Shown here piece after piece: positions 6,663 through 30,244 of a DNA stretch of 64,000 nt; position 1 is the first letter of the stretch, and each line of letters begins with the position of its first letter. Origin of the DNA: Bacteroidaceae bacterium (GTDB taxonomy: Bacteria; Bacteroidota; Bacteroidia; Bacteroidales; Bacteroidaceae); the NCBI GenBank assembly GCA_017546785.1, contig JAFYRW010000042.1, positions 62,001-126,000 on the forward strand, read 5' to 3'. The notes beneath the pieces were generated by a model. It had not been told where the DNA came from and made no database searches. It was given only the letters and a program-made list of their open reading frames with translations. Both the position numbers and the translations under genes were made by a program.

Positions 6663-6734
6663 CGCGGGGTGGAGCAGTGGTAGCTCGTTGGGCTCATAAC
6701 CCAAAGGCCGGAGGTTCGATCCCTTCCCCCGCTA
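6663..6734 (+). tRNA. tRNA-Met(CAT), initiator type
   Basis: A cloverleaf folds over 72 bases. The acceptor stem CGCGGGG pairs with CCCCGCT, the D stem is GAGC/GCTC, the anticodon stem is TTGGG/CCCAA around loop CTCATAA, and the T stem is GGAGG/CCTTC around TTCGATC. Two initiator hallmarks are visible: three consecutive G-C pairs next to the anticodon loop, and an unpaired first position (C1 opposite T72). The CCA tail is not encoded. It has its own promoter and terminator. Confidence 0.93.
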
Positions 6735-15498: not shown

Positions 15499-16503
15499 TT
15501 ATTTATCTTGGATATTTTCAAGATAGTCGTTTGTGAATTTTGCATCAACTACAAGGTTGAATGTCGCAGGGTTAGTGATAATCTTACCGATGATGTTTGT
15601 ACGGTAGTTGCGCTGTGTGCGGATGTTGGGGAAATTGCTGGTAGGATCGTTTGTCTTACCATCTGCTGTTGCCCATACGAACTCAACGTTTGTCAAACTC
15701 TTCTCTGAATTGAGGTCACCAACGAGCAAGTAGTTCATTGCAAGATAGGTGAACTTCTCGTCATCCTCTATTTGGCCGTTGTTGTTAAGGTCAATCTCGA
15801 GTTCCTCTGTAGGAATAGCGTTGAGCTTGAATGTCATAGGAGCAGATACATCGGTCTTTGCTACAGCATTGTGATAAGCGCTGAAAACTCTGTAAACGTT
15901 GCTTACAGTAATCTGACTCTCTGAGATAACGACACCAGACTTCTTGGCAGCCTCGAGCTCAGCAGCATCGATACCAAAGTTAAGTTGTGCAAAAGGACGC
16001 TTCAATTCGATGGGCTCCTCGTTGTTGATGTTGTTCATACTCATCTCTTTGGTAACGTCGAACTTTGCAGTGAAAGCATCGCGCTCCTCGATGTTAGAGA
16101 GCTGGTCATCGATAATCTCGATGTTCTTAAGGTCGTCAATTTTGTAGTATTTGCTGTTGCCATTCTCGTCGCCATAGTAAGCGAAGAAAGCTACGCGGTA
16201 AGCCTGACCTTTAGCCAAACGAACGTTGTAGGTAGCTGTTTTGTCAGCATTAACGTTTACAATCTGATACAAGTCCAACTCATTGCCTTTAGCGTCGTAA
16301 ACGGTACAAGCTACCTTGTTGGCCTTTGTGCCTTTACCGATAATGGCACGGGTAGTGATTCCGTCGGCAGTAGATACGGTGAATGTCGCATCGATATAAT
16401 TATCTGCAGACTCTCCACCTACGAAGTCATCCTGTGAACAAGATGCTACAGAGAGCATACCTGCAAAAGCAAGCATACCAAAGAATAAATTCTTAATTTT
16501 CAT
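15499..16503 (-). CDS. Fimbrillin-like (DUF6562-type) lipoprotein
   Basis: The 334-residue product has a lipobox (LSVASC, Cys22). A fimbrillin-type beta-sandwich region follows with blocks I associate with DUF6562/FimA-like proteins of Bacteroidales: TVSTADGITTRAIIGKG, ELKRPFAQLNFGIDAAE and RTQRNYRTNIIGKI near the C terminus. Arg in the TTRA segment could be the gingipain-like maturation cleavage site used by FimA-type pilins. It stands alone between the SusCD cluster and the S9 peptidase, without anchor or tip genes, so it may be a solitary surface pilin or adhesin. It is not closely similar to the Mfa1-type subunit at 45236-46801. Upstream are short direct repeats and a long-looped inverted repeat in the leader. 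Confidence 0.78.
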   Translation of the reverse strand: MKIKNLFFGMLAFAGMLSVASCSQDDFVGGESADNYIDATFTVSTADGITTRAIIGKGTKANKVACTVYDAKGNELDLYQIVNVNADKTATYNVRLAKGQAYRVAFFAYYGDENGNSKYYKIDDLKNIEIIDDQLSNIEERDAFTAKFDVTKEMSMNNINNEEPIELKRPFAQLNFGIDAAELEAAKKSGVVISESQITVSNVYRVFSAYHNAVAKTDVSAPMTFKLNAIPTEELEIDLNNNGQIEDDEKFTYLAMNYLLVGDLNSEKSLTNVEFVWATADGKTNDPTSNFPNIRTQRNYRTNIIGKIITNPATFNLVVDAKFTNDYLENIQDK

Positions 16504-20713: not shown

Positions 20714-20754
20714 TATATAAAATTTGTTGTATTAAAATTATGTTTGCTAAAATA

Positions 20755-20785
20755 CAACTTTATTATGATTTTCAGTGCTATCCAA
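20755..20785 (-). promoter_or_regulatory. Promoter of the serine ammonia-lyase gene
   Basis: On the minus strand a -7 TAAAGTTG (one mismatch to TAnnTTTG) lies 20 bases from a -33 TTG, and the leader is about 35 bases. Confidence 0.5.
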
Positions 20786-20862
20786 TGTTTTTTTTCTTGT
20801 TGATACCATTATCTCATTAACTTATAGTTAATGTATAAAATATGTAAAAATTACATATATGT

Positions 20863-20870
20863 TAAATTTG
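20863..20870 (+). promoter_or_regulatory. -7 element for the beta-propeller/TonB receptor operon
   Basis: TAAATTTG matches the -7 consensus exactly, 72 bases before the start codon. No clear -33 is found in the AT-rich sequence before it, so an activator or an alternative start may be involved. Confidence 0.4.
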
Positions 20871-20942
20871 TTTTGTATTATTGCAAACATTTGTGAATTT
20901 TATTCCTAATTATACATTATTAAACTAACTAAGAAAATTAAA

Positions 20943-23900
20943 ATGAGAAACTGTCTATTTACGCTATTAGGCCTTTTCGCTTGTGCTAATCTGTTTGCGG
21001 TTCATAATGCTGTTGAGCCTGCTGTGCAGCGTGATTCTGTTGCTGTACAATATTACGACCCTTATATGACGGAACCGCTCCCCGCATCGGCTCCCTCTTG
21101 GATGAAGGAGATTGAGGCTAACCCTGCGGGGGTGAACTTTCATCTTATGCAGCAGCGCTTCAGAGAGTGGACTGCCAATAATGTCGATGCTCGAGTAAAG
21201 ACTGTGGACAATAAGGCTGCGGTGAACTACTATCGCCGTTGGATGAGTGCCTACAGGGATTATGTTACTGCCGATGGTACTATTGCGCTGCCTACAATAA
21301 AAGAGTATGCCGATTATGTCGATGCAATGAACAGCGCAACAGTCTCTGTCAATACACGCGCTGCAGGTTATGCGAATATATGGCGTAATATCGGCCCTAA
21401 CCGCACCTATGGACAAAAGGATGGCCAGTTGAAGGAGAAAGACTCTCAGGTATGTGTCTTCCGCATAGCAGTAAGTCACAGCGACAGTGCCACACTCTAT
21501 TGCGGCACAGAGTCGGGAGTGGTATTTAAAACAACTGACAAAGGAGTGAACTGGTATCCTTGCGCTCCGCAGCATAATTTCGGTGGCTCAATATTCAGTA
21601 TTGCCATAGACCGCGACGACGATAATATCGTTTACGTTGGTGGCGGCCCGTGGCTATGGAAGAGTATCGACGGAGGAGAAAGTTGGACACGTTGCGAGGG
21701 AATAACCAGCCGAGTAAACTCAATAAGAATAGACCCTACAAATAAGAAACACGTTACCGTAGCTGCCGGAAACAGACACGATGGAAAATCGGGCAATGGA
21801 TTTTTTGTATCGACCGATGGCGGAGAATCCTTTTTCTGTACACACTATGGCATAAGCTTTGACCACGAATTGCAGCCGGGCAATCCTTCTAAAATTTACC
21901 TTATAGCCCGTGAGTCGGCCGGAGCGTGGGCCTATTTCTATACATCAGAGGATGGTGGACTCAATTGGGCAAAGAGTGAGTTTCCCGTATACGACGTTAT
22001 TTGCGGTCGTCTGTCGGTGAGTGAGGCTCCCGGCGGCGAGAATTATCTCTATGCGTTGGTAACCAGCGACGGTTGGGGTTATGATGCAGGTCCGATAGGT
22101 GGAAAGGGTACCCCTTATATCTTATGCTCAAAGGATGCCGGAGTAAATTGGGAAAATCAGACTGATAAGGGTGGAAAGTATTACGATATAACATTCTCGC
22201 CCATAATGGATGCTGCCGGCGGTCAAGGATTCTTTGATATGATGATTGGTGCATCGGCCGAGGACCCTAAGAAGGTGCTCTTTGGTCTTACATCACTCTA
22301 TCGCTCTACAAACGAGGGAGTATGCAACTATCGCGATAATGCAATAGGAGGCTATCAGAGAAACGACTGGATGCACTGCGATATTCAGGATATTGCAATT
22401 CATCCTTGCGGTGATACGTGGATATGTAACGATGGCGGTGTAAAATATTCGGCCGACTTTTTCGAGACAAAAGGCGAGGATAGATACAACGGAATATATG
22501 CTTCCGATTATCAAGGCCTTGGAGTCGGATGGAACGAGGATGTAATGGCGTCGGGACGTTGGCACAATGGCGATGTTGTACACGCTGCATCGTATGGCGA
22601 GGGTAATTCTCTACACGTTGGAGGAGTAGAGATTGCAACGGGTTATGTGATGAAGAGCAACCCATGGAAGGTCTATTTTACCGATGCTGCTACCCGCATA
22701 ATGCCCCGAGAAATGGATGGAACCATAGGCGAGGATTTTCAAACGTGGTTCAGAGATATAAAACCTTATGAGGCGCTGAGAATATGTGGTAATATTGCTA
22801 CTGACCCCCGATACGCTCTAAAGGTCTTTGTACAGGATATGACAAACTACGGCGAGGGTTATCTCTCGTACGACGAGGGCGCTTCGTTCCAAAAGATTTT
22901 CGACAGCGAGGGTGAGGATTACTATAGCTACGACTTTTCGCGCAGTAACCCCGATAGAATGTATATCTCGGGAACATTCTCTCTGTGGCGCTCCGACGAT
23001 GGCGGTCACACATTCTACTACACCGAGCAACCCTTTGATGATATGGACTTTAATATGCACTTTACACGCGTGGTAATCGACCCCAACGACGAGGATCACG
23101 TTATTGTGATATGCAACGACCTTGTCGGCAAGGTTCGCGAGAGTTTCGATGGTGGTGCTTCGTGGGCCCCATTCAATTTAGGCTCTCTTTCCGACAAGAG
23201 AATCCATCAGATTATTCTTGTGGGCGATGAATATAACAGCTGTTACATAACCTCTTACGACGGCGCTTATGTGTGGTTCAAGGATAATACAATGGATGAT
23301 TTTATAGATTATTCTTCGGGATTGAATCCGGGTGCGCGTATCTCAAAGGTCGTTCCTTTCTACAAGGGTGGAGTATTGCGTATGGCTACCGATCAGGGAT
23401 TGTGGGAGGCTCCTCTCTATCATCAGGACTTTACTCCTGTGGCACAGCCTATGGCTCTTAATCTTGGTAGCGGCGACCTTACCTCTAACCCCTATAAAGA
23501 GGTTCAGTTCGATAGCTACAGCATTGTAAAGCAGGATGAGAATACAAAATGGCACTGGAGTTTCTCGCCCCAGCCAAAATATGTGAGCGATGCAAATGTG
23601 CGCAATCCTAAGGTTGTATTTGCCTATGGCGGAAACTACGATGTAACGCTCACAGTAACAACACCCGCGGGTAGTAGTAGCCGTACAATAAAGAATATGA
23701 TTGTGATAGATTCTCCCTACACAGGCCTGAAGGATAATGCAAAGGTCGGCGAGGTAGGGGTAAAGAATCTTGTTCTTGCTGCCGGTGAAAGGTTGCAGAT
23801 TGTAACATCGGGCCTTGTCGATGATGCTATCTTTACCGTACATACGCCCAAAGGACAGCTGTTGCTCTCCGAGACAATTCCTGCTTCGGCAGACAGCTAC

Positions 23901-23996
23901 GAGGTTTCGTCCTCTTTGCAATTGCCTTTGGGAACATATATTTACTCAATAGAGTCTCCTACACAGAAATTCTTTGGAAAATTTATTAAGAAATAA
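20943..23996 (+). CDS. Secreted Asp-box beta-propeller protein with PKD domain and T9SS-type C-terminal domain
   Basis: The 1,017-residue product has a signal peptide (about residues 1-20, CANLFA). A family-specific N-terminal segment follows. A long beta-propeller region then shows at least seven Asp-box (BNR) motifs, including KTTDKGVNWYPC, KSIDGGESWTRC, STDGGESF, TSEDGGLNW, SKDAGVNWE, SDDGGHTFY and SFDGGASWAP. This repeat type occurs in sialidases, sortilin/VPS10 and GH74 proteins, and no sialidase FRIP/arginine triad could be assigned. A PKD domain sits at about residues 870-925 (VVFAYGGNYDVTLTV). The last ~80 residues look like a type A T9SS sorting domain (LPLGTYIYSIES, ending KFFGKFIKK). 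It is paralogous to the next gene. Function unknown; surface binding or hydrolysis of a glycoconjugate are both possible. Confidence 0.85.
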   Translation: MRNCLFTLLGLFACANLFAVHNAVEPAVQRDSVAVQYYDPYMTEPLPASAPSWMKEIEANPAGVNFHLMQQRFREWTANNVDARVKTVDNKAAVNYYRRWMSAYRDYVTADGTIALPTIKEYADYVDAMNSATVSVNTRAAGYANIWRNIGPNRTYGQKDGQLKEKDSQVCVFRIAVSHSDSATLYCGTESGVVFKTTDKGVNWYPCAPQHNFGGSIFSIAIDRDDDNIVYVGGGPWLWKSIDGGESWTRCEGITSRVNSIRIDPTNKKHVTVAAGNRHDGKSGNGFFVSTDGGESFFCTHYGISFDHELQPGNPSKIYLIARESAGAWAYFYTSEDGGLNWAKSEFPVYDVICGRLSVSEAPGGENYLYALVTSDGWGYDAGPIGGKGTPYILCSKDAGVNWENQTDKGGKYYDITFSPIMDAAGGQGFFDMMIGASAEDPKKVLFGLTSLYRSTNEGVCNYRDNAIGGYQRNDWMHCDIQDIAIHPCGDTWICNDGGVKYSADFFETKGEDRYNGIYASDYQGLGVGWNEDVMASGRWHNGDVVHAASYGEGNSLHVGGVEIATGYVMKSNPWKVYFTDAATRIMPREMDGTIGEDFQTWFRDIKPYEALRICGNIATDPRYALKVFVQDMTNYGEGYLSYDEGASFQKIFDSEGEDYYSYDFSRSNPDRMYISGTFSLWRSDDGGHTFYYTEQPFDDMDFNMHFTRVVIDPNDEDHVIVICNDLVGKVRESFDGGASWAPFNLGSLSDKRIHQIILVGDEYNSCYITSYDGAYVWFKDNTMDDFIDYSSGLNPGARISKVVPFYKGGVLRMATDQGLWEAPLYHQDFTPVAQPMALNLGSGDLTSNPYKEVQFDSYSIVKQDENTKWHWSFSPQPKYVSDANVRNPKVVFAYGGNYDVTLTVTTPAGSSSRTIKNMIVIDSPYTGLKDNAKVGEVGVKNLVLAAGERLQIVTSGLVDDAIFTVHTPKGQLLLSETIPASADSYEVSSSLQLPLGTYIYSIESPTQKFFGKFIKK

Positions 23997-24003
23997 GCGT
24001 GAT

Positions 24004-27000
24004 ATGAAATTTATAAATACAATAGCATTGCTCTTTGGTGCGCTGTCGGTGGTACAGGCACAGCCTGTGGAGCCGTTGGATTCGCTTTATACTCCCTATC
24101 TTTTAAACTATCTGCCGGCAAATTCTCCTGAGTGGATGGCGCAATTGGCTACTCCCCATAAGACAAACTATAATGCGCTGGTCGATAGCTTCAATGCCTA
24201 TCTTATGAAGACTCCGGGTGCTCGTCGCAAAAGCCCCGATACTAAGCAGGTAGTGAATCATTTCCGTCGTTTCCAAAAGGCTTATGCTCAATTTGTGCAG
24301 CTCGACGGCACAATCTCTCTGCCGAAGGCAAGCGATTATCATCGCGAAATTGATGATGTGAACAGAGAGGCTCTGTATGCTCGTAGAATGCGTGCAAAGA
24401 GTCGTGGAGAGGCCTCTGCCGCCAATCAGTGGCGTGTGCTGTCGCCTGTGCTCACATACGATATTGAACATAAGAATCTGTCGCCGGCGCAAGCTAATAT
24501 ACAGCGTATGCGAGCTTCGGTATCTAATCCCAATATCCTCTATTGCGGCTCTGAAACAGGAATGATATTCCGCTCCGACGACAAGGGAGAGACGTGGACA
24601 CCCTGCGCTGGTGGAGAGTGGCTGTCGGGTGAGGTAACGGCTGTCGATATAAGCTCAACCAATCACGATAGGGTAGTTATTGGTGCGGGCGGTGTCTTTT
24701 GGCTATCTGACGATGGTGGCGACAATTGGCGTAATATCACTCCCGTAAAGGCGCAGTATGCGCGAACAAGCGCAGCAATGTTCCATCCTGCCGACGATAA
24801 TATTATTCTTGCGGGCGACCGTTCGCAATTGTGGCTTAGTACCGACGGCGGAAACAGTTGGGAACTTAAACTCTCGGGAATGGTGTTTGATATAAGATAT
24901 TCCAAGCAGAATCCCAATGTATGCTATGTGGCAATAGAACAGGATGTTACCGTTAAATTGTATAAGAGTATCGACGGCGGTAGGAATTGGAATCTTCTTA
25001 CGCTCGATTCACAGCCGTTGATAAGCGCCCGAATAGGACTCAGCGACGCACCCAACGGCGCCGATTATGTCTATCTGTGGGCTTGTCGCCGAAACAGCCT
25101 GTCGCAGCCCGGCCCTCTCTATTTTAGTGGCCCTCCTCTCTTGTACAAGAGCGTAGATGCGGGTAATTCGTTCGTGGTAATGGACCCTGTATCGCAAATG
25201 GAGTCGGTAGATAAGAATGGCGGTCAGGGATACTACGACCTTGTGTGTGTGGCCTCTGCTACCGACCCCGAAACAATTCTCGTTGGTATAATACAGCTTT
25301 ATCGCTCTACTGACGGAGGAAAGAATCTCTCCAATGTGGGAGGCTATTATGGAAAATTTGACCTTCATTGTGATATGCAGAGCATACAGACCAATGGAGG
25401 GGATACGTGGCTATCGACCGACGGCGGCGTAATATATAGCAACGACTTTTTCAATAACGATGCGCAGCCTAAAATTCGCGGAATATATGCTTCGGAAATG
25501 TGGGGCTTTGATCAAGGATGGAACGAGGATGTTATGGTAGGCGGACGTAACCATAATGGCAATATGTCGCAACTTGACCGTTACAACGGAGCATCTATAT
25601 ATATGCGCGGATCCGAACGTCCCACAGGCTATGTGTTCCTGTCGAACCCGCGTAAAGTGTTATATAGCGATGCGAGCGGTGCCGTTCTTATGCCCGATGA
25701 TTGGCGCGATGAGTTTGTGCCTCTTCTTGAGTATTGGTTCTATCCCAAAGAGTCTTCACAATTTGGTATAGGATTGGAGTTTGATCCTCGTTACGCACAA
25801 TGTTTCTATGTTGTGCGTGGAATGGGCGATGATGACCATAAGACACTCTGGCGCACTCGCGACGATGGTTACTCCTTTAACGCCGTACACACATTCAATA
25901 AGCCTATAACAGCGCTTGTGGTGTCGCGCTCTAATCCCGACAAGATTGTTGTCAGCACGTGGGGACGTATATTCTACTCATTGGATGCGGGAGAGAGCTT
26001 CCAGGAATATGATATTCCCGAAGAGATGACAAACAGCATTGGCTATAAGATTGCTATCCATCCTAAGAACGAGAATGAAATATGGGTGGGCGACGGTAAT
26101 CCTGCCGGATTCTGGCGTACAAAAGACAATGGTCAAAGTTGGGAGAAGATTGACGATGGACTTACTTTCTTTAACTGGGAGGATAAGATGGAGAAACACT
26201 CTATAGGACGTTTCTTCCTTACCGGCAACGAGAAGAATGCGGCCTATGCTATAGCATTTACTATGGGTTATTTGAATGAGTCGTATACAACTACCCGCGG
26301 CAGGGTGCTTTATCGCGATGATACAACCGACGGATGGATTGATTTTAGCGAGGGCTTGCCTAAGGTAATAAATCTCAACCGTATGCTGCCTTTCTATAAG
26401 AATGGCGTTATTCGTCTGGCAACAAGCAATGGAATATGGGAGCGTCCTTTGGTTGATAGTGATTTTGCTCCTATTGCCCAGCCGTTGATACTCAATGTGG
26501 GCTCGGGCGACAATTCCAATGCCAACTATCCGAGAGTAATTCAGCTCGATAGCTATAGTATAGTCAATCAGGAGAATGCAGAGTGGCAGTGGGAGATTAC
26601 TCCGGCTCCACTTTCCATTACATCGTACAATGTGCGTAACCCGCAGATGACTATTGCGCCCAATCAGACATACGATATTTCCTTGACAATAAAGACACCT
26701 TATGGCGAGGATACCAAAAAGATCGAAGGAATGATTTTTGGCGGAAAATCTGTCGAGGAGGGTGAAGAGGAATCGGGCGGCTCAGAATCCGGTGGCAATG
26801 GTGAGTCGGGCTCTGACAATGAGAATGAATCGGAATCTCAGCCTACCGGCGTTGATAATAGTTCGGCGAATGTGAGAGACTTGTTGTTGCCCTCGGGATA
26901 TTTTGTAAAGGTGGGCGATAATATTACTTTTGTGCCTCATAAACTTACAGGAAAAGTTAATATAAAGCTCTATACTGCGCGAGGAGAATTGCTCTACAGC

Positions 27001-27120
27001 GAAGCTGATGAGGCTGCGCAGATAGTCTCAACTGCGGGCTTTGCTCAAGGAGTATATTTCTACATCGCAACGGACGAGGCGGGCTTTAAAGAGGCCGGTA
27101 AGCTTGTGATTACCAAATAG
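24004..27120 (+). CDS. Second secreted Asp-box beta-propeller/PKD/T9SS-CTD protein (paralogue)
   Basis: This 1,038-residue protein starts at the ATG at 24004, whose signal peptide ends SVVQAQ; the longer frame from 23974 overlaps the previous gene and is not preferred. It shares order and motifs with the upstream paralogue: FRSDDKGETWTPC, STDGGNSWE, SIDGGRNWN, STDGGKN, STDGGVIYSNDFF, TRDDGYSF and TKDNGQSWEK, and the shared block GWNEDVM. A PKD domain (NQTYDISLTIKTP) is followed by an acidic Ser/Gly/Glu/Asn-rich linker near residues 917-955 that the paralogue lacks. A T9SS-type C-terminal domain (FAQGVYFYIATD, ending GKLVITK) closes the protein. Only 7 bases separate it from the upstream stop, and 17 from the TonB receptor. 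Confidence 0.85.
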   Translation: MKFINTIALLFGALSVVQAQPVEPLDSLYTPYLLNYLPANSPEWMAQLATPHKTNYNALVDSFNAYLMKTPGARRKSPDTKQVVNHFRRFQKAYAQFVQLDGTISLPKASDYHREIDDVNREALYARRMRAKSRGEASAANQWRVLSPVLTYDIEHKNLSPAQANIQRMRASVSNPNILYCGSETGMIFRSDDKGETWTPCAGGEWLSGEVTAVDISSTNHDRVVIGAGGVFWLSDDGGDNWRNITPVKAQYARTSAAMFHPADDNIILAGDRSQLWLSTDGGNSWELKLSGMVFDIRYSKQNPNVCYVAIEQDVTVKLYKSIDGGRNWNLLTLDSQPLISARIGLSDAPNGADYVYLWACRRNSLSQPGPLYFSGPPLLYKSVDAGNSFVVMDPVSQMESVDKNGGQGYYDLVCVASATDPETILVGIIQLYRSTDGGKNLSNVGGYYGKFDLHCDMQSIQTNGGDTWLSTDGGVIYSNDFFNNDAQPKIRGIYASEMWGFDQGWNEDVMVGGRNHNGNMSQLDRYNGASIYMRGSERPTGYVFLSNPRKVLYSDASGAVLMPDDWRDEFVPLLEYWFYPKESSQFGIGLEFDPRYAQCFYVVRGMGDDDHKTLWRTRDDGYSFNAVHTFNKPITALVVSRSNPDKIVVSTWGRIFYSLDAGESFQEYDIPEEMTNSIGYKIAIHPKNENEIWVGDGNPAGFWRTKDNGQSWEKIDDGLTFFNWEDKMEKHSIGRFFLTGNEKNAAYAIAFTMGYLNESYTTTRGRVLYRDDTTDGWIDFSEGLPKVINLNRMLPFYKNGVIRLATSNGIWERPLVDSDFAPIAQPLILNVGSGDNSNANYPRVIQLDSYSIVNQENAEWQWEITPAPLSITSYNVRNPQMTIAPNQTYDISLTIKTPYGEDTKKIEGMIFGGKSVEEGEEESGGSESGGNGESGSDNENESESQPTGVDNSSANVRDLLLPSGYFVKVGDNITFVPHKLTGKVNIKLYTARGELLYSEADEAAQIVSTAGFAQGVYFYIATDEAGFKEAGKLVITK

Positions 27121-27137
27121 TACCCTCGTTTACTGCT

Positions 27138-29345
27138 ATGAGAAAGCTTTTTGTGCTGATACTCTCGCTCTCGATATTCGCGGTGTCGGGTGCGCAGGAG
27201 ATTGGGGAGCAGCATCTGCAGGAGATTACTATCTCGAGTAGCCGTTGGAGCGAGAGGAACGAACTGTTGCCTGTGAAAATATCGCATATAAATTTTGAGG
27301 ATGCCAATCAGTATAATCTGCAGACGGCAGCCGACCTTTTGGGAGTGTCGGGCGAGGTATTTATACAAAAGAGCCAATATGGTGGCGGTAGCCCTATGAT
27401 AAGGGGCTTTGCCACCAACAGATTGGTGTATAGTGTCGATGGGGTGCGTATGAATAATGCAATCTTCCGTTCGGGCAATTTGCAGAATGTCATATCACTC
27501 GACCCTTTTGCCATTGGCCGCACCGAGGTTCTTTTCGGTCCGGGTGCCGTAAGCTATGGCAGCGATGCCATCGGCGGTGCTATGGTATTCAATACATTGC
27601 AGGCAAGGCTCTCGGGCTCAAACGAAAAGCCGCTCTTCTATGGTTCGGCAACAGTGCGTACCGCAACAGCCTCGGACGAACTTACAGGACACATTCATTT
27701 TGGAGTAGGTTTTAAAAGATTGGCTTTTCTCACAAGCTTGACATACTCCGATTATAAAGACCTTAAGCAGGGAAAGTATGGCCCCGAGGAGTATATAATG
27801 CCTTATGTGGTTATTCCCGAGTATTGCCGCGAGGGGGTAAGCGACTGTGTTACTCTCAACAACGATATTCGCAAGCAGAGCCCCAGCGGCTATTCCCAGC
27901 TTAATTTTATGCAGAAGGTGCGCTATTCGGTAAACGATGATTGGAATATAGAGTATGCCTTTCATCTTAGCGGAACGTCGGAGTATGCCCGTTACGACAG
28001 GCATCAGCGTATGCGCAACGACCTTCCTCGTTATGCCGAATGGAACTACGGCCCTCAAAAATGGATGATGAACCATATAAAGGTTGATAATTCAAACGGT
28101 AATCTCCTTTACGACTCGTTGAGACTTAATATCGCCCTACAGAATTTTGCCGAGAGCCGCATAAGCCGCGATTTTAATAAGCCCAACCGCGAGACACAGA
28201 GCGAAAAGGTTGATGCCTATAGTGTGAATGTGGATTTTCGTAAAGCTCTCGCCCATAATATGCAGCTTTTTTATGGCGCAGAGTATGTGCAGAATAATGT
28301 GCGCTCGACAGCATTCGGCACAGACGTTACTACCGGCGAGACAACAAAAATAGCGTCGCGCTACCCAAAGGCCGAGTGGTACAGCGCGGGCATCTACTCG
28401 CAATTCGAATGGCAACTGAACAATTGGGTGAATATTGCTGCGGGCGTACGTTACAATCACTATATCATAGATTCAGACTTTTCTACTGTCGGATACGCTG
28501 TTCCTTTCGGGAATATGCAGCACTCCGACAAAGGTAGCATCAGCGGAAATATAGGTGTCAATTGGCGACCATCGAACAGCTGGCTCGTGAGGGCTAACTA
28601 TGCTCGTGGCTTCCGCGCTCCTAATGTCGATGATATGGGCAAGCTCTTTGATAGTGCCGACGGTTGCGTGACAGTGCCTAATCCTCAGCTTGAGCCTGAG
28701 TATGCCGATAATATAGAGGCGGGTGTGGTAAAACATTTCGGACGCTATCTTAAAATGGATATTACAGCATATTACACTCATTTGAGCAATGCCATTGTGT
28801 GTCGCAACTACACATTCGCAGGAAGCGAATATATGCAATATGGTGGCGAGGAGTGTCGCGTGCAGGCTCTGCAGAATGCCGCTGTTGCCAATGTGTGCGG
28901 AGTGCAGGTTAGTGTTGAGTCGCGCTTCGCAAAATGGTTCTATGCTGCGGCATATGCCAATTGGCAGTATGGCCGCGAGGAACTTGACAATGGCGATGTT
29001 TCCCCATCGCGTCACGCTGCGCCATTTTTTGGACGTGCCGCTGTCGGCTTTTCCAATGCCCGTTTGACGGCAGAGATTTTTACGCAGTTTCAGGCGGAAC
29101 GCAAGGCCGATGATATGCCCGAGGAGGAGAAGGATAAGAAAGAATTCTATGCTCTTGACGAGTCGGGTAATGTCTATTCTCCCGGATGGATGACTCTCAA
29201 TGCCCGTATGTCGTATCGCATAATGGAGGGCTTTTATTTGAATACCACATTGGAGAATATTCTAGATAAAAGATATAGGCCGTATAGCTGCGGAATAAGC
29301 GCCCCCGGACGCAATTTCACTCTCAGCCTGACCTATACTCTCTAA
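27138..29345 (+). CDS. TonB-dependent outer-membrane receptor (haem/siderophore-receptor-like)
   Basis: The 735-residue receptor has a signal peptide (residues 1-19) and a short N terminus with TonB box-like LQEITISSS, and no carboxypeptidase-like domain, so it is not SusC class. The plug contains GGGSPMIRGFATNRLVYSVD and GAVSYGSDAIGGAM, and the C terminus is the barrel ending LSLTYTL. In the barrel GFRAPNVDD followed by VPNPQLEPEY resembles the FRAP and NPDL boxes of haem and siderophore receptors, but the histidine often found between them in haem receptors is absent. It follows the second beta-propeller gene by 17 bases, so all three genes are probably one operon. Cargo unknown, with haem or an iron complex a reasonable guess. 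Confidence 0.88.
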   Translation: MRKLFVLILSLSIFAVSGAQEIGEQHLQEITISSSRWSERNELLPVKISHINFEDANQYNLQTAADLLGVSGEVFIQKSQYGGGSPMIRGFATNRLVYSVDGVRMNNAIFRSGNLQNVISLDPFAIGRTEVLFGPGAVSYGSDAIGGAMVFNTLQARLSGSNEKPLFYGSATVRTATASDELTGHIHFGVGFKRLAFLTSLTYSDYKDLKQGKYGPEEYIMPYVVIPEYCREGVSDCVTLNNDIRKQSPSGYSQLNFMQKVRYSVNDDWNIEYAFHLSGTSEYARYDRHQRMRNDLPRYAEWNYGPQKWMMNHIKVDNSNGNLLYDSLRLNIALQNFAESRISRDFNKPNRETQSEKVDAYSVNVDFRKALAHNMQLFYGAEYVQNNVRSTAFGTDVTTGETTKIASRYPKAEWYSAGIYSQFEWQLNNWVNIAAGVRYNHYIIDSDFSTVGYAVPFGNMQHSDKGSISGNIGVNWRPSNSWLVRANYARGFRAPNVDDMGKLFDSADGCVTVPNPQLEPEYADNIEAGVVKHFGRYLKMDITAYYTHLSNAIVCRNYTFAGSEYMQYGGEECRVQALQNAAVANVCGVQVSVESRFAKWFYAAAYANWQYGREELDNGDVSPSRHAAPFFGRAAVGFSNARLTAEIFTQFQAERKADDMPEEEKDKKEFYALDESGNVYSPGWMTLNARMSYRIMEGFYLNTTLENILDKRYRPYSCGISAPGRNFTLSLTYTL

Positions 29346-29371
29346 ATGCTGTCTGATAAAATAAATAATTG

Positions 29372-29383: not shown

Positions 29384-30244
29384 ATGCATACAATTCTTAT
29401 AACAGGAGCAAGCGGCTTTGTCGGCAGCCGCTTTGTTTGTCGATGGGGAGGAGCCTACCGACTGCTCACTCCTACACACGCCGAGCTTGATATTACAGAC
29501 GCTGATTCTGTAAACAGTTTTTTTGTGAATAATCGTCCCGATGCAGTGCTTCATCTTGCAGCAATATCAAATACGGGCTATTGCGAAGAGCACCCCGAGG
29601 AGAGTCTGCTGGTGAATGTGCAGGGCGCTGTAAACGTTGCACGTGCCGCAGCCTCGTGTGGAGCAAAGCTGGTCTTTTTCTCGAGCGATCAGGTATATAA
29701 TGGAAATTGGGAGAGTGGATTGCTCAAGGAGGATGTTCATCTGTCGCCCGAGACTGTATATGCGCGCCATAAATTACAGGCTGAGCAATTGGTTGCCGCC
29801 GCTTGTCCCGGCTCCGTTATACTGCGTGCTACGTGGATGTACGACAAGGATGTTGAAGGCCTACCTACACACAATAATTTTGTGCTTAACATACGCCGTG
29901 CGGTAGCAGAAAAGAGCCTGCTTATGCTGCCTATGCGCGAATATCGCGGAATAACGTGGGTGCGCGAGGCTGTAGAAATGTTGCCATATGCCTTTAATTT
30001 GTGTGGCGGTGTCTATAATTATGGCTCCGAGAACCGCTTGAATACCTACGAGACAGGCTGCTGCTTCCTTGAAATGTTGGCTACCGGCGTTAAAGCCGAG
30101 ACTATTCTGCAGCCCGATATTGAGCGCTATCCTCTGCACGAGCGCAATATATCAATCTCGACCGAAAAGGTTGTACGTGCCTCGGCCTATAATATCTGCT
30201 TCTGCGATACTCTAGGTGGATTAAGAATGTTCTTAGAGCAGTAA
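29384..30244 (+). CDS. SDR-type NAD(P)-dependent sugar-nucleotide reductase (RmlD-like)
   Basis: The 286-residue protein has an N-terminal Rossmann fold (TILITGASGFVGSRF, GxxGxxG nucleotide motif at about residues 8-14). A Ser-Asp pair in FFSSDQVYNG and the active-site Tyr-x-x-x-Lys in VYARHKLQAEQ follow. Together with VLHLAAISNTGYCEEHPEESLLVNVQGAVNVA this resembles dTDP-4-dehydrorhamnose reductase (RmlD) and related epimerases. The rest of the rml pathway is not adjacent, so the exact substrate is unknown. The start at 29384 is preferred because an upstream in-frame TTG/ATG at 29369 lies within the promoter. The mRNA may be leaderless. Confidence 0.8.
   Translation: MHTILITGASGFVGSRFVCRWGGAYRLLTPTHAELDITDADSVNSFFVNNRPDAVLHLAAISNTGYCEEHPEESLLVNVQGAVNVARAAASCGAKLVFFSSDQVYNGNWESGLLKEDVHLSPETVYARHKLQAEQLVAAACPGSVILRATWMYDKDVEGLPTHNNFVLNIRRAVAEKSLLMLPMREYRGITWVREAVEMLPYAFNLCGGVYNYGSENRLNTYETGCCFLEMLATGVKAETILQPDIERYPLHERNISISTEKVVRASAYNICFCDTLGGLRMFLEQ

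Follow-up and report, generated by a model that had tools for sequence, protein, structure and literature searches.

Here we analyse a 64,000-nucleotide stretch of a Bacteroidaceae genome (assembly GCA_017546785.1, contig JAFYRW010000042.1, positions 62,001 to 126,000 of the forward strand; hereafter the window) and find that three adjacent genes in it form a conserved cassette, which is either present or absent as a whole. The first two genes, A and B, encode large paralogous beta-propeller proteins, and the third, C, encodes a TonB-dependent receptor (Table 1). As A, B and C are encoded together and occur in an all-or-none fashion, capture of a scarce nutrient and its import is suggested. 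By analogy with known systems, we read the unit, with a probability of roughly 55%, as a surface capture and hand-off uptake cassette. According to this model, the type IX secretion system (T9SS) would export A and B, which would remain on the cell surface and bind a nutrient or its carrier with their Asp-box propellers. The bound nutrient would be passed to C, a receptor of a haem/haemoglobin-receptor-like clade, which would import it. The computed basis of the model comprises gene order, all-or-none presence, the T9SS marker SprA, T9SS-like tails, propeller repeats and receptor domains. From these we infer the surface location of A and B, their contact with C, the direction of the hand-off and the cargo; our leading guess for the latter, a scarce metal complex of the haem type, is a weak one.

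Table 1. Features of the three-gene unit and its upstream region, in window coordinates.
Feature	Position	Strand	Description
Intergenic region between divergent serine dehydratase gene and A	20714..20942	.	presumed promoter region
Gene A	20943..23996	+	1017-residue Asp-box (Vps10/BNR-like) beta-propeller protein with PKD and T9SS-type C-terminal domain
Asp-box propeller region of A	21531..23165	+	residues 197-741; 8 strict Asp-boxes; Sortilin-Vps10 match
GWNEDVM motif of A	22527..22547	+	residues 529-535; invariant in 43/43 aligned homologues
PKD_4 domain of A	23472..23696	+	residues 844-918; 28.8 bits, cut-off 27
T9SS sorting-domain-like C-terminus of A	23796..23993	+	residues 952-1017; TIGR04183 17.8 bits, cut-off 23
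Gene B	24004..27120	+	1038-residue paralogue of A, 35% identical
Asp-box propeller region of B	24574..26142	+	residues 191-713; 8 strict Asp-boxes
T9SS sorting-domain-like C-terminus of B	26920..27111	+	residues 973-1036; TIGR04183 21.0 bits, cut-off 23
Gene C	27138..29345	+	735-residue TonB-dependent receptor (Plug and barrel) without N-terminal extension
FRAP...NPQL stretch of C	28611..28691	+	residues 492-518; no histidine

Order and spacing of the three genes are conserved

An earlier reading of the sequence alone (hereafter the original prediction) had proposed that the three genes constitute a module. The coordinates and spacings that it gave, i.e. 7 nucleotides between A and B and 17 nucleotides between B and C, are confirmed from the open reading frames (ORFs) of the window. 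B is counted from the ATG at 24004, and its mechanically called ORF opens earlier, with a TTG at 23974.

A scan of named genomes yielded 28 loci (L-numbered), 26 of them close (66-73% identity to A) and two distant (L049, 29%; L050, 28%). A ruminant gut sample is named as the source of 23 of the close loci and no source is named for SIG121, SIG122 and SIG125; L037 and L042 belong to one assembly. Several of the G-numbered genomes used below overlap with these loci, i.e. the two sets are not independent. Both A and B are present in 24 of the 26 close loci, while L042 and L044 end inside A. The gap between A and B is 40 nucleotides or less in 20 of the 24, and C follows directly 3' of B, with a gap of at most 21 nucleotides, in all 23 loci in which the contig continues (L027 ends 137 nucleotides past B); because start codons were assigned mechanically, these gap limits are approximate. 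Thus, the conserved order of the three families, which the original prediction had suggested as a check, is indeed found. Several copies of C are cut by a contig end, and in L039 C consists of two ORFs. The longer A-B gaps of the remaining four loci (L037:12932-13344, L032:12932-13160, L039:13007-13279 and L027:2876-3007) contain intergenic sequence that looks repetitive; L037 has three copies of a 21-mer of which L032 has a single copy, and a second piece is common to L037 and L039.

The unit resides in at least two unrelated genomic contexts. In 17 of the 26 loci the unit is preceded by a serine dehydratase gene, in some of them with other genes intervening. In L031, L033, L036 and L038, lpx-type genes are found 5' of the unit; the first three of these, which represent the second context, also have a kbl-like gene after C (named by inspection). 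Order and close spacing are maintained across copies that are ~60-74% identical to the window proteins and across these different contexts. Pairwise distances also correlate between the three genes (r = 0.88 for A-B, 0.83 for A-C and 0.77 for B-C; 20 loci). As a side observation, a MarR-like regulator and a gene resembling pyridine-nucleotide-disulphide reductases (by inspection) lie between the serine dehydratase gene and the unit in L032, L035, L037, L039, L042 and L048.

The unit occurs in an all-or-none fashion

Among 201 genomes sampled from the family, full-length A was detected in eight of the 13 that belong to the window's genus and in none of the other 188, seven of which gave short partial matches. 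Within an order sample of 344 genomes, G000 and G511 carry the A-B pair and G341 retains a remnant of A. Of the eight genomes in the genus of G511, five have an intact pair, one holds a remnant and two hold nothing. C (E<=1e-10) occurs in exactly those 13 of the 21 genomes of the two genera that have A and B (the C of G541 is split over two contigs). The eight genomes devoid of A and B all lack C, and one of them retains a remnant of A; no genome of the 21 contains only one or two intact members of the unit. The original prediction had named missing co-occurrence of the homologues as one finding that would speak against a module, and the module idea survives this comparison, the carriers of A and B being the carriers of C in 13 out of 13 cases.

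The sites at which the unit is missing are also informative. In L147, L148 and L149, the serine dehydratase gene and the gene found after C in the window are immediate neighbours. In the other genus, the unit is missing from the lpx-kbl site in L156 and L157, whereas L072 holds a copy in decay there, reduced to an N-terminal fragment of A (L072:5837-6412) between lpxD and the kbl-like gene, with B and C gone. One internal stop interrupts the lpxD match of G228.

A and B are duplicated propeller proteins and probable T9SS cargo

A and B can be aligned end to end and share the motif GWNEDVM, in agreement with the original view that they are paralogues that arose by duplication. In a tree of 17 A copies, 17 B copies and 12 lone homologues, these three groups separate with full support, from which it follows that the duplication happened before the module copies diverged. 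As regards transfer between the two genera versus vertical descent, the B part of the tree places the copies of the second context (L071, L033, L031 and L036) next to all others, while the A part does not resolve their position. The eight strict Asp-boxes present in each protein compare with a mean below 0.1 and a maximum of 2 in 1000 shuffles. Sortilin-Vps10 scores over the Pfam cut-off in both proteins, BNR and PKD_4 in A only, and PSII_BNR in B. The original prediction had assigned an Asp-box propeller and a PKD domain to both paralogues; the propellers hold for both and the PKD domain for A, whereas no Pfam PKD model passes its cut-off in B.

A T9SS-type C-terminal domain is suggested by TIGR04183, which matches 43 of 43 A/B homologues scanned at E<=0.01, an E-value criterion rather than the curated cut-off. 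SprA (TIGR04189) scores over its cut-off in all 21 genomes of the two genera, whether or not they have the unit, and in none of 14 controls; the search for T9SS machinery was aimed at SprA alone. Judged by their sequences, A and B are probable T9SS cargo.

Among solved structures, the best relatives of the A/B profile are xyloglucan hydrolases, which we take to be members of family GH74. These matches bring up an alternative that we rate as unlikely, namely that A and B act as hydrolases, either of GH74 type or as Asp-box glycosidases of another kind, and cut a polymer or glycoprotein at the cell surface, while C imports a product set free in this way or a cofactor. GH74 enzymes use two catalytic Asp residues located in the inter-propeller cleft. 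At the column in which the two top solved chains differ (D versus A), presumably the catalytic Asp70 and its mutant, A carries E190, and the invariance of this residue in 43 of 43 homologues favours the hydrolase explanation. However, it is Glu rather than Asp that occupies this first position, the second catalytic position cannot be aligned, sortilins match the same profile, and the glycosylhydrolase equivalog F510_1955 yields 55.2 and 88.6 bits for A and B, far under its cut-off of 175. A and B have profile matches and Asp-box repeats in common with GH74 xyloglucanases and sortilin/Vps10 proteins but carry an added T9SS-like tail and, in A, a PKD domain. The absence of a SusC-type match in C likewise argues against hydrolysis, and so does the description of Asp-boxes, in PMC2716378, as structural elements that are unlikely to bind ligands.

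C is a non-SusC receptor with haem-receptor-like relatives

C contains a Plug domain (PF07715, 58.3 bits), a TonB barrel (PF00593, 132.1 bits) and an OMP_b-brl_3 match, all over the Pfam cut-offs, and gives no SusC-type match at E<=1, as expected for the non-SusC TonB receptor originally proposed. The haem cargo that the original prediction had hinted at constitutes a special case of the favoured model: A and B, as sortilin-like protein binders, would seize haemoglobin or a different carrier of haem, from which C would take the haem. We consider this version possible but doubtful. It is favoured by the two NCBIfam models nearest to C, TIGR01785 and TIGR01786, both describing haem/haemoglobin receptors and both matching 19 of 19 module copies at E<=1e-20, as well as by the best solved relatives of C in phmmer searches, i.e. 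PhuR, a haem/haemoglobin receptor and ShuA, followed by the pesticin and colicin I receptors. Moreover, HmuY, a haemophore of Bacteroidota, is over cut-off in none of the 21 genomes, a count to which the control genomes, also without match, provide no positive control. However, the window C reaches 211.8 and 218.7 bits with TIGR01785 and TIGR01786 and stays below their cut-offs of 316.85 and 323.75. In addition, the FRAP and NPDL-like boxes without an intervening histidine, as originally noted, were recovered as FRAP and NPQL, and the histidine is missing from this stretch in 19 of 19 module copies, in all 18 order relatives with boxes (20 examined) and, by reading of the stretches, in all 13 class relatives in which boxes were found (20 examined). 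His 185, 276, 289 and 626 of C are conserved alike in module copies and relatives and are thus not specific to the A-B-C unit. We judge the haem hint weak, given the missed cut-offs and the absent histidine. HmuY was also sought as a sign of haem use and was rejected, as the only match (window 16138-16407, minus strand) is sub-threshold (21.2 bits, cut-off 27) and belongs to another gene; by eye, the ORF holding it (15499-16503, 334 residues) resembles a lipoprotein.

A system for vitamin B12 comparable to BtuB-BtuG would share the layout of a propeller and a TonB transporter, and the B12 receptor model TIGR01779 indeed matches five of the 19 copies of C at E<=1e-20. We nevertheless regard a B12 function as very improbable, since the haem models match all 19 copies at far lower E-values. 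Furthermore, an Rfam scan of the window returned a tRNA at 6663-6734 as the sole match over gathering score and no riboswitch, whereas B12 riboswitches are described for the btu loci of B. theta (PMC10404256).

Observations that weigh against the capture and hand-off model

Several findings weigh against our reading of the unit. First, A-B gaps of 132 (L027), 229 (L032), 273 (L039) and 413 nucleotides (L037), i.e. in four of 24 loci, weaken the case for cotranscription. Second, a clean empty site was seen in only three of the five module-free genomes of the window's genus; of the other two loci, L151 has a different neighbour and L150, which holds a stray match to A only (61 residues, 25% identical), stops at a contig edge. 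Third, the distances of A, B and C also correlate with those of the serine dehydratase (r = 0.75, 0.79 and 0.69, respectively; 14 loci), so that their congruence partly reflects shared ancestry and the excess is modest. Fourth, the T9SS-type domains claimed by the original prediction are matched in the homologues at E<=0.01, but both window proteins remain below the TIGR04183 cut-off (Table 1) and PF18962 misses both, though it is over cut-off in two other genes of the same genome. Finally, the parts also live apart. None of the 40 loci that were fetched for a lone A/B homologue contains a receptor detected by the C profile (E<=1e-5, fetched DNA), a profile that does find C and its relatives in control loci. 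These 40 loci comprise 18 from the order, 20 from the class, and L049 and L050, and some are short (L062, 3974 bases); the order and class loci were taken from 24 order and 42 class genomes with long A/B matches beyond the carriers. Conversely, relatives of C occur without A/B: they were found in 152 of 344 order genomes (E<=1e-80) and in 164 of 295 class genomes (E<=1e-100), carriers included. The order and class searches scored the best two candidates of each genome for A/B and the best three for C, and 'lone' and 'single copy' are accordingly provisional terms. The occurrence of lone A/B homologues and lone C relatives means that neither part needs the other in general.

These lone homologues, together with the cassette-like behaviour of the unit at two sites, lend some weight to a looser arrangement, in which A and B act as adhesins or surface-layer proteins and C serves another nutrient, the three genes being kept, moved and deleted together without a joint function. 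The persistence of order and tight spacing among diverged copies in different contexts, and the distribution described above, with all three genes in every carrier and no partial units, render this explanation improbable as well. As to the overall interpretation of the original prediction, the unit of two duplicated T9SS-type propellers and a non-SusC TonB receptor is retained and found to be conserved in order and all-or-none in presence. The cotranscription, ligand binding, cutting and release that it proposed are putative, its cargo hint is weak and its chosen precedent, SusD-SusC, is not the closest one.

The receptor may have exchanged partners

Relatives of C that live without A/B differ from it in their surroundings. 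A small gene of ~176 codons lies directly 5' of C relatives in 18 of 20 order loci and 15 of 20 class loci fetched; four of its products gave no Pfam match over cut-off and two no NCBIfam match at E<=0.001. The C-terminus of this small protein family is often proline-rich (L120-L139 and L191-L210). In an alignment of 19 module copies with the 34 relatives over 850 bits (of the 40 fetched), an N-terminal extension, a block of 64 residues, is present in 33 of the 34 relatives and absent from the module copies. While 162 positions are invariant in both groups and only four are fixed differently, about half of all C positions share their consensus with the relatives, a proportion that falls to a quarter in some stretches, e.g. 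401-425 and 451-475. Based on this invariant core, the drifting loops and the different partners, C seems to have exchanged partners relative to its lineage. That is, at rather less than even odds, we tentatively propose from the alignments that the C lineage lost the N-terminal extension and the upstream small gene, and recruited a duplicated pair of T9SS-exported propellers as capture arm. Such a partner exchange, if true, would amount to a TonB uptake system whose capture proteins are delivered to the surface by type IX secretion instead of being lipoproteins.

Comparison with known uptake systems

SusC-SusD systems pair a surface protein with a TonB receptor. The original prediction had described the A-B-C layout as analogous to but distinct from this pair. 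The distinction holds, since at E<=1 neither A nor B matches SusD and C does not match SusC. Closer precedents for the layout exist in two propeller systems. In Bacteroides B12 uptake, the propeller protein BtuG and the TonB transporter BtuB are encoded in one operon and form a stable complex (PMC10404256). BtuG is a lipoprotein and btu loci have riboswitches, neither of which was found for A-B-C: no DUF4374 or BtuG-type Pfam match was obtained for A or B at E<=1, and a lipobox was judged absent by eye. XusB is a seven-bladed surface beta-propeller of Bacteroides siderophore piracy, encoded beside the TonB transporter XusA, to which it is proposed to hand off cargo (PMC13142918). As in A-B-C, the propeller gene adjoins the receptor gene; however, XusB is a single-propeller DUF4374 lipoprotein, whereas here two Asp-box proteins of ~1,000 residues with T9SS-like tails are encoded. 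In its layout, A-B-C closely resembles BtuB-BtuG and XusA-XusB, but its parts are different and probably exported by type IX secretion.

The HmuR-HmuY and HfpR-HfpY systems likewise combine a TonB receptor with a dedicated extracellular haem-binding protein (PMC9331221), but neither A nor B matches HmuY at E<=1. BfpR of Flavobacterium psychrophilum, for which a loop histidine is reported (PMC9331221), has FRAP/NxxL boxes as C does, and its N-terminal extension and upstream small gene resemble those of C's relatives, whereas extension and loop histidine are absent from C. BfpR was considered as the characterised orthologue of these relatives, a reading that we do not adopt, as a crude motif test showed no asd neighbour in 20 class loci and the two differ in the loop histidine.

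Among the literature matches listed, none described a pairing of T9SS propellers with a TonB receptor, subscription papers being mostly outside the search. Bacteroidota feed via TonB transporters with surface helpers, and the propeller helpers of the papers cited above, BtuG and XusB, are lipoproteins. If T9SS cargo fills the helper role, many lone T9SS-type propeller proteins of Bacteroidota would gain a testable function. Likewise, a group of ruminant gut bacteria would gain a candidate trait for nutrient scavenging, which some species have and others lack.

Flanking genes and upstream elements

Upstream of A, 229 AT-rich nucleotides separate the unit from a divergent L-serine dehydratase gene (named by inspection). 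Downstream of C, a gene resembling sugar-nucleotide reductases (by inspection) begins with a TTG at 29369, with an in-frame ATG at 29384. The intergenic region upstream of A contains no Rfam match, and inverted repeats like those present in it also arise in 77 of 200 shuffles. A 9-mer, TTATGTTAA/TTAACATAA, occurs in nine of 25 regions upstream of A, not including that of the window. A short element around GTTAACATA is found upstream of A in 11 of 25 loci (L023, L026, L031, L032, L037, L038, L039, L040, L045, L046 and L048) and is absent from the upstream regions of the window and L071. It is mostly located ~87-136 nucleotides before the ORF start of A and possibly represents a shared promoter or operator.

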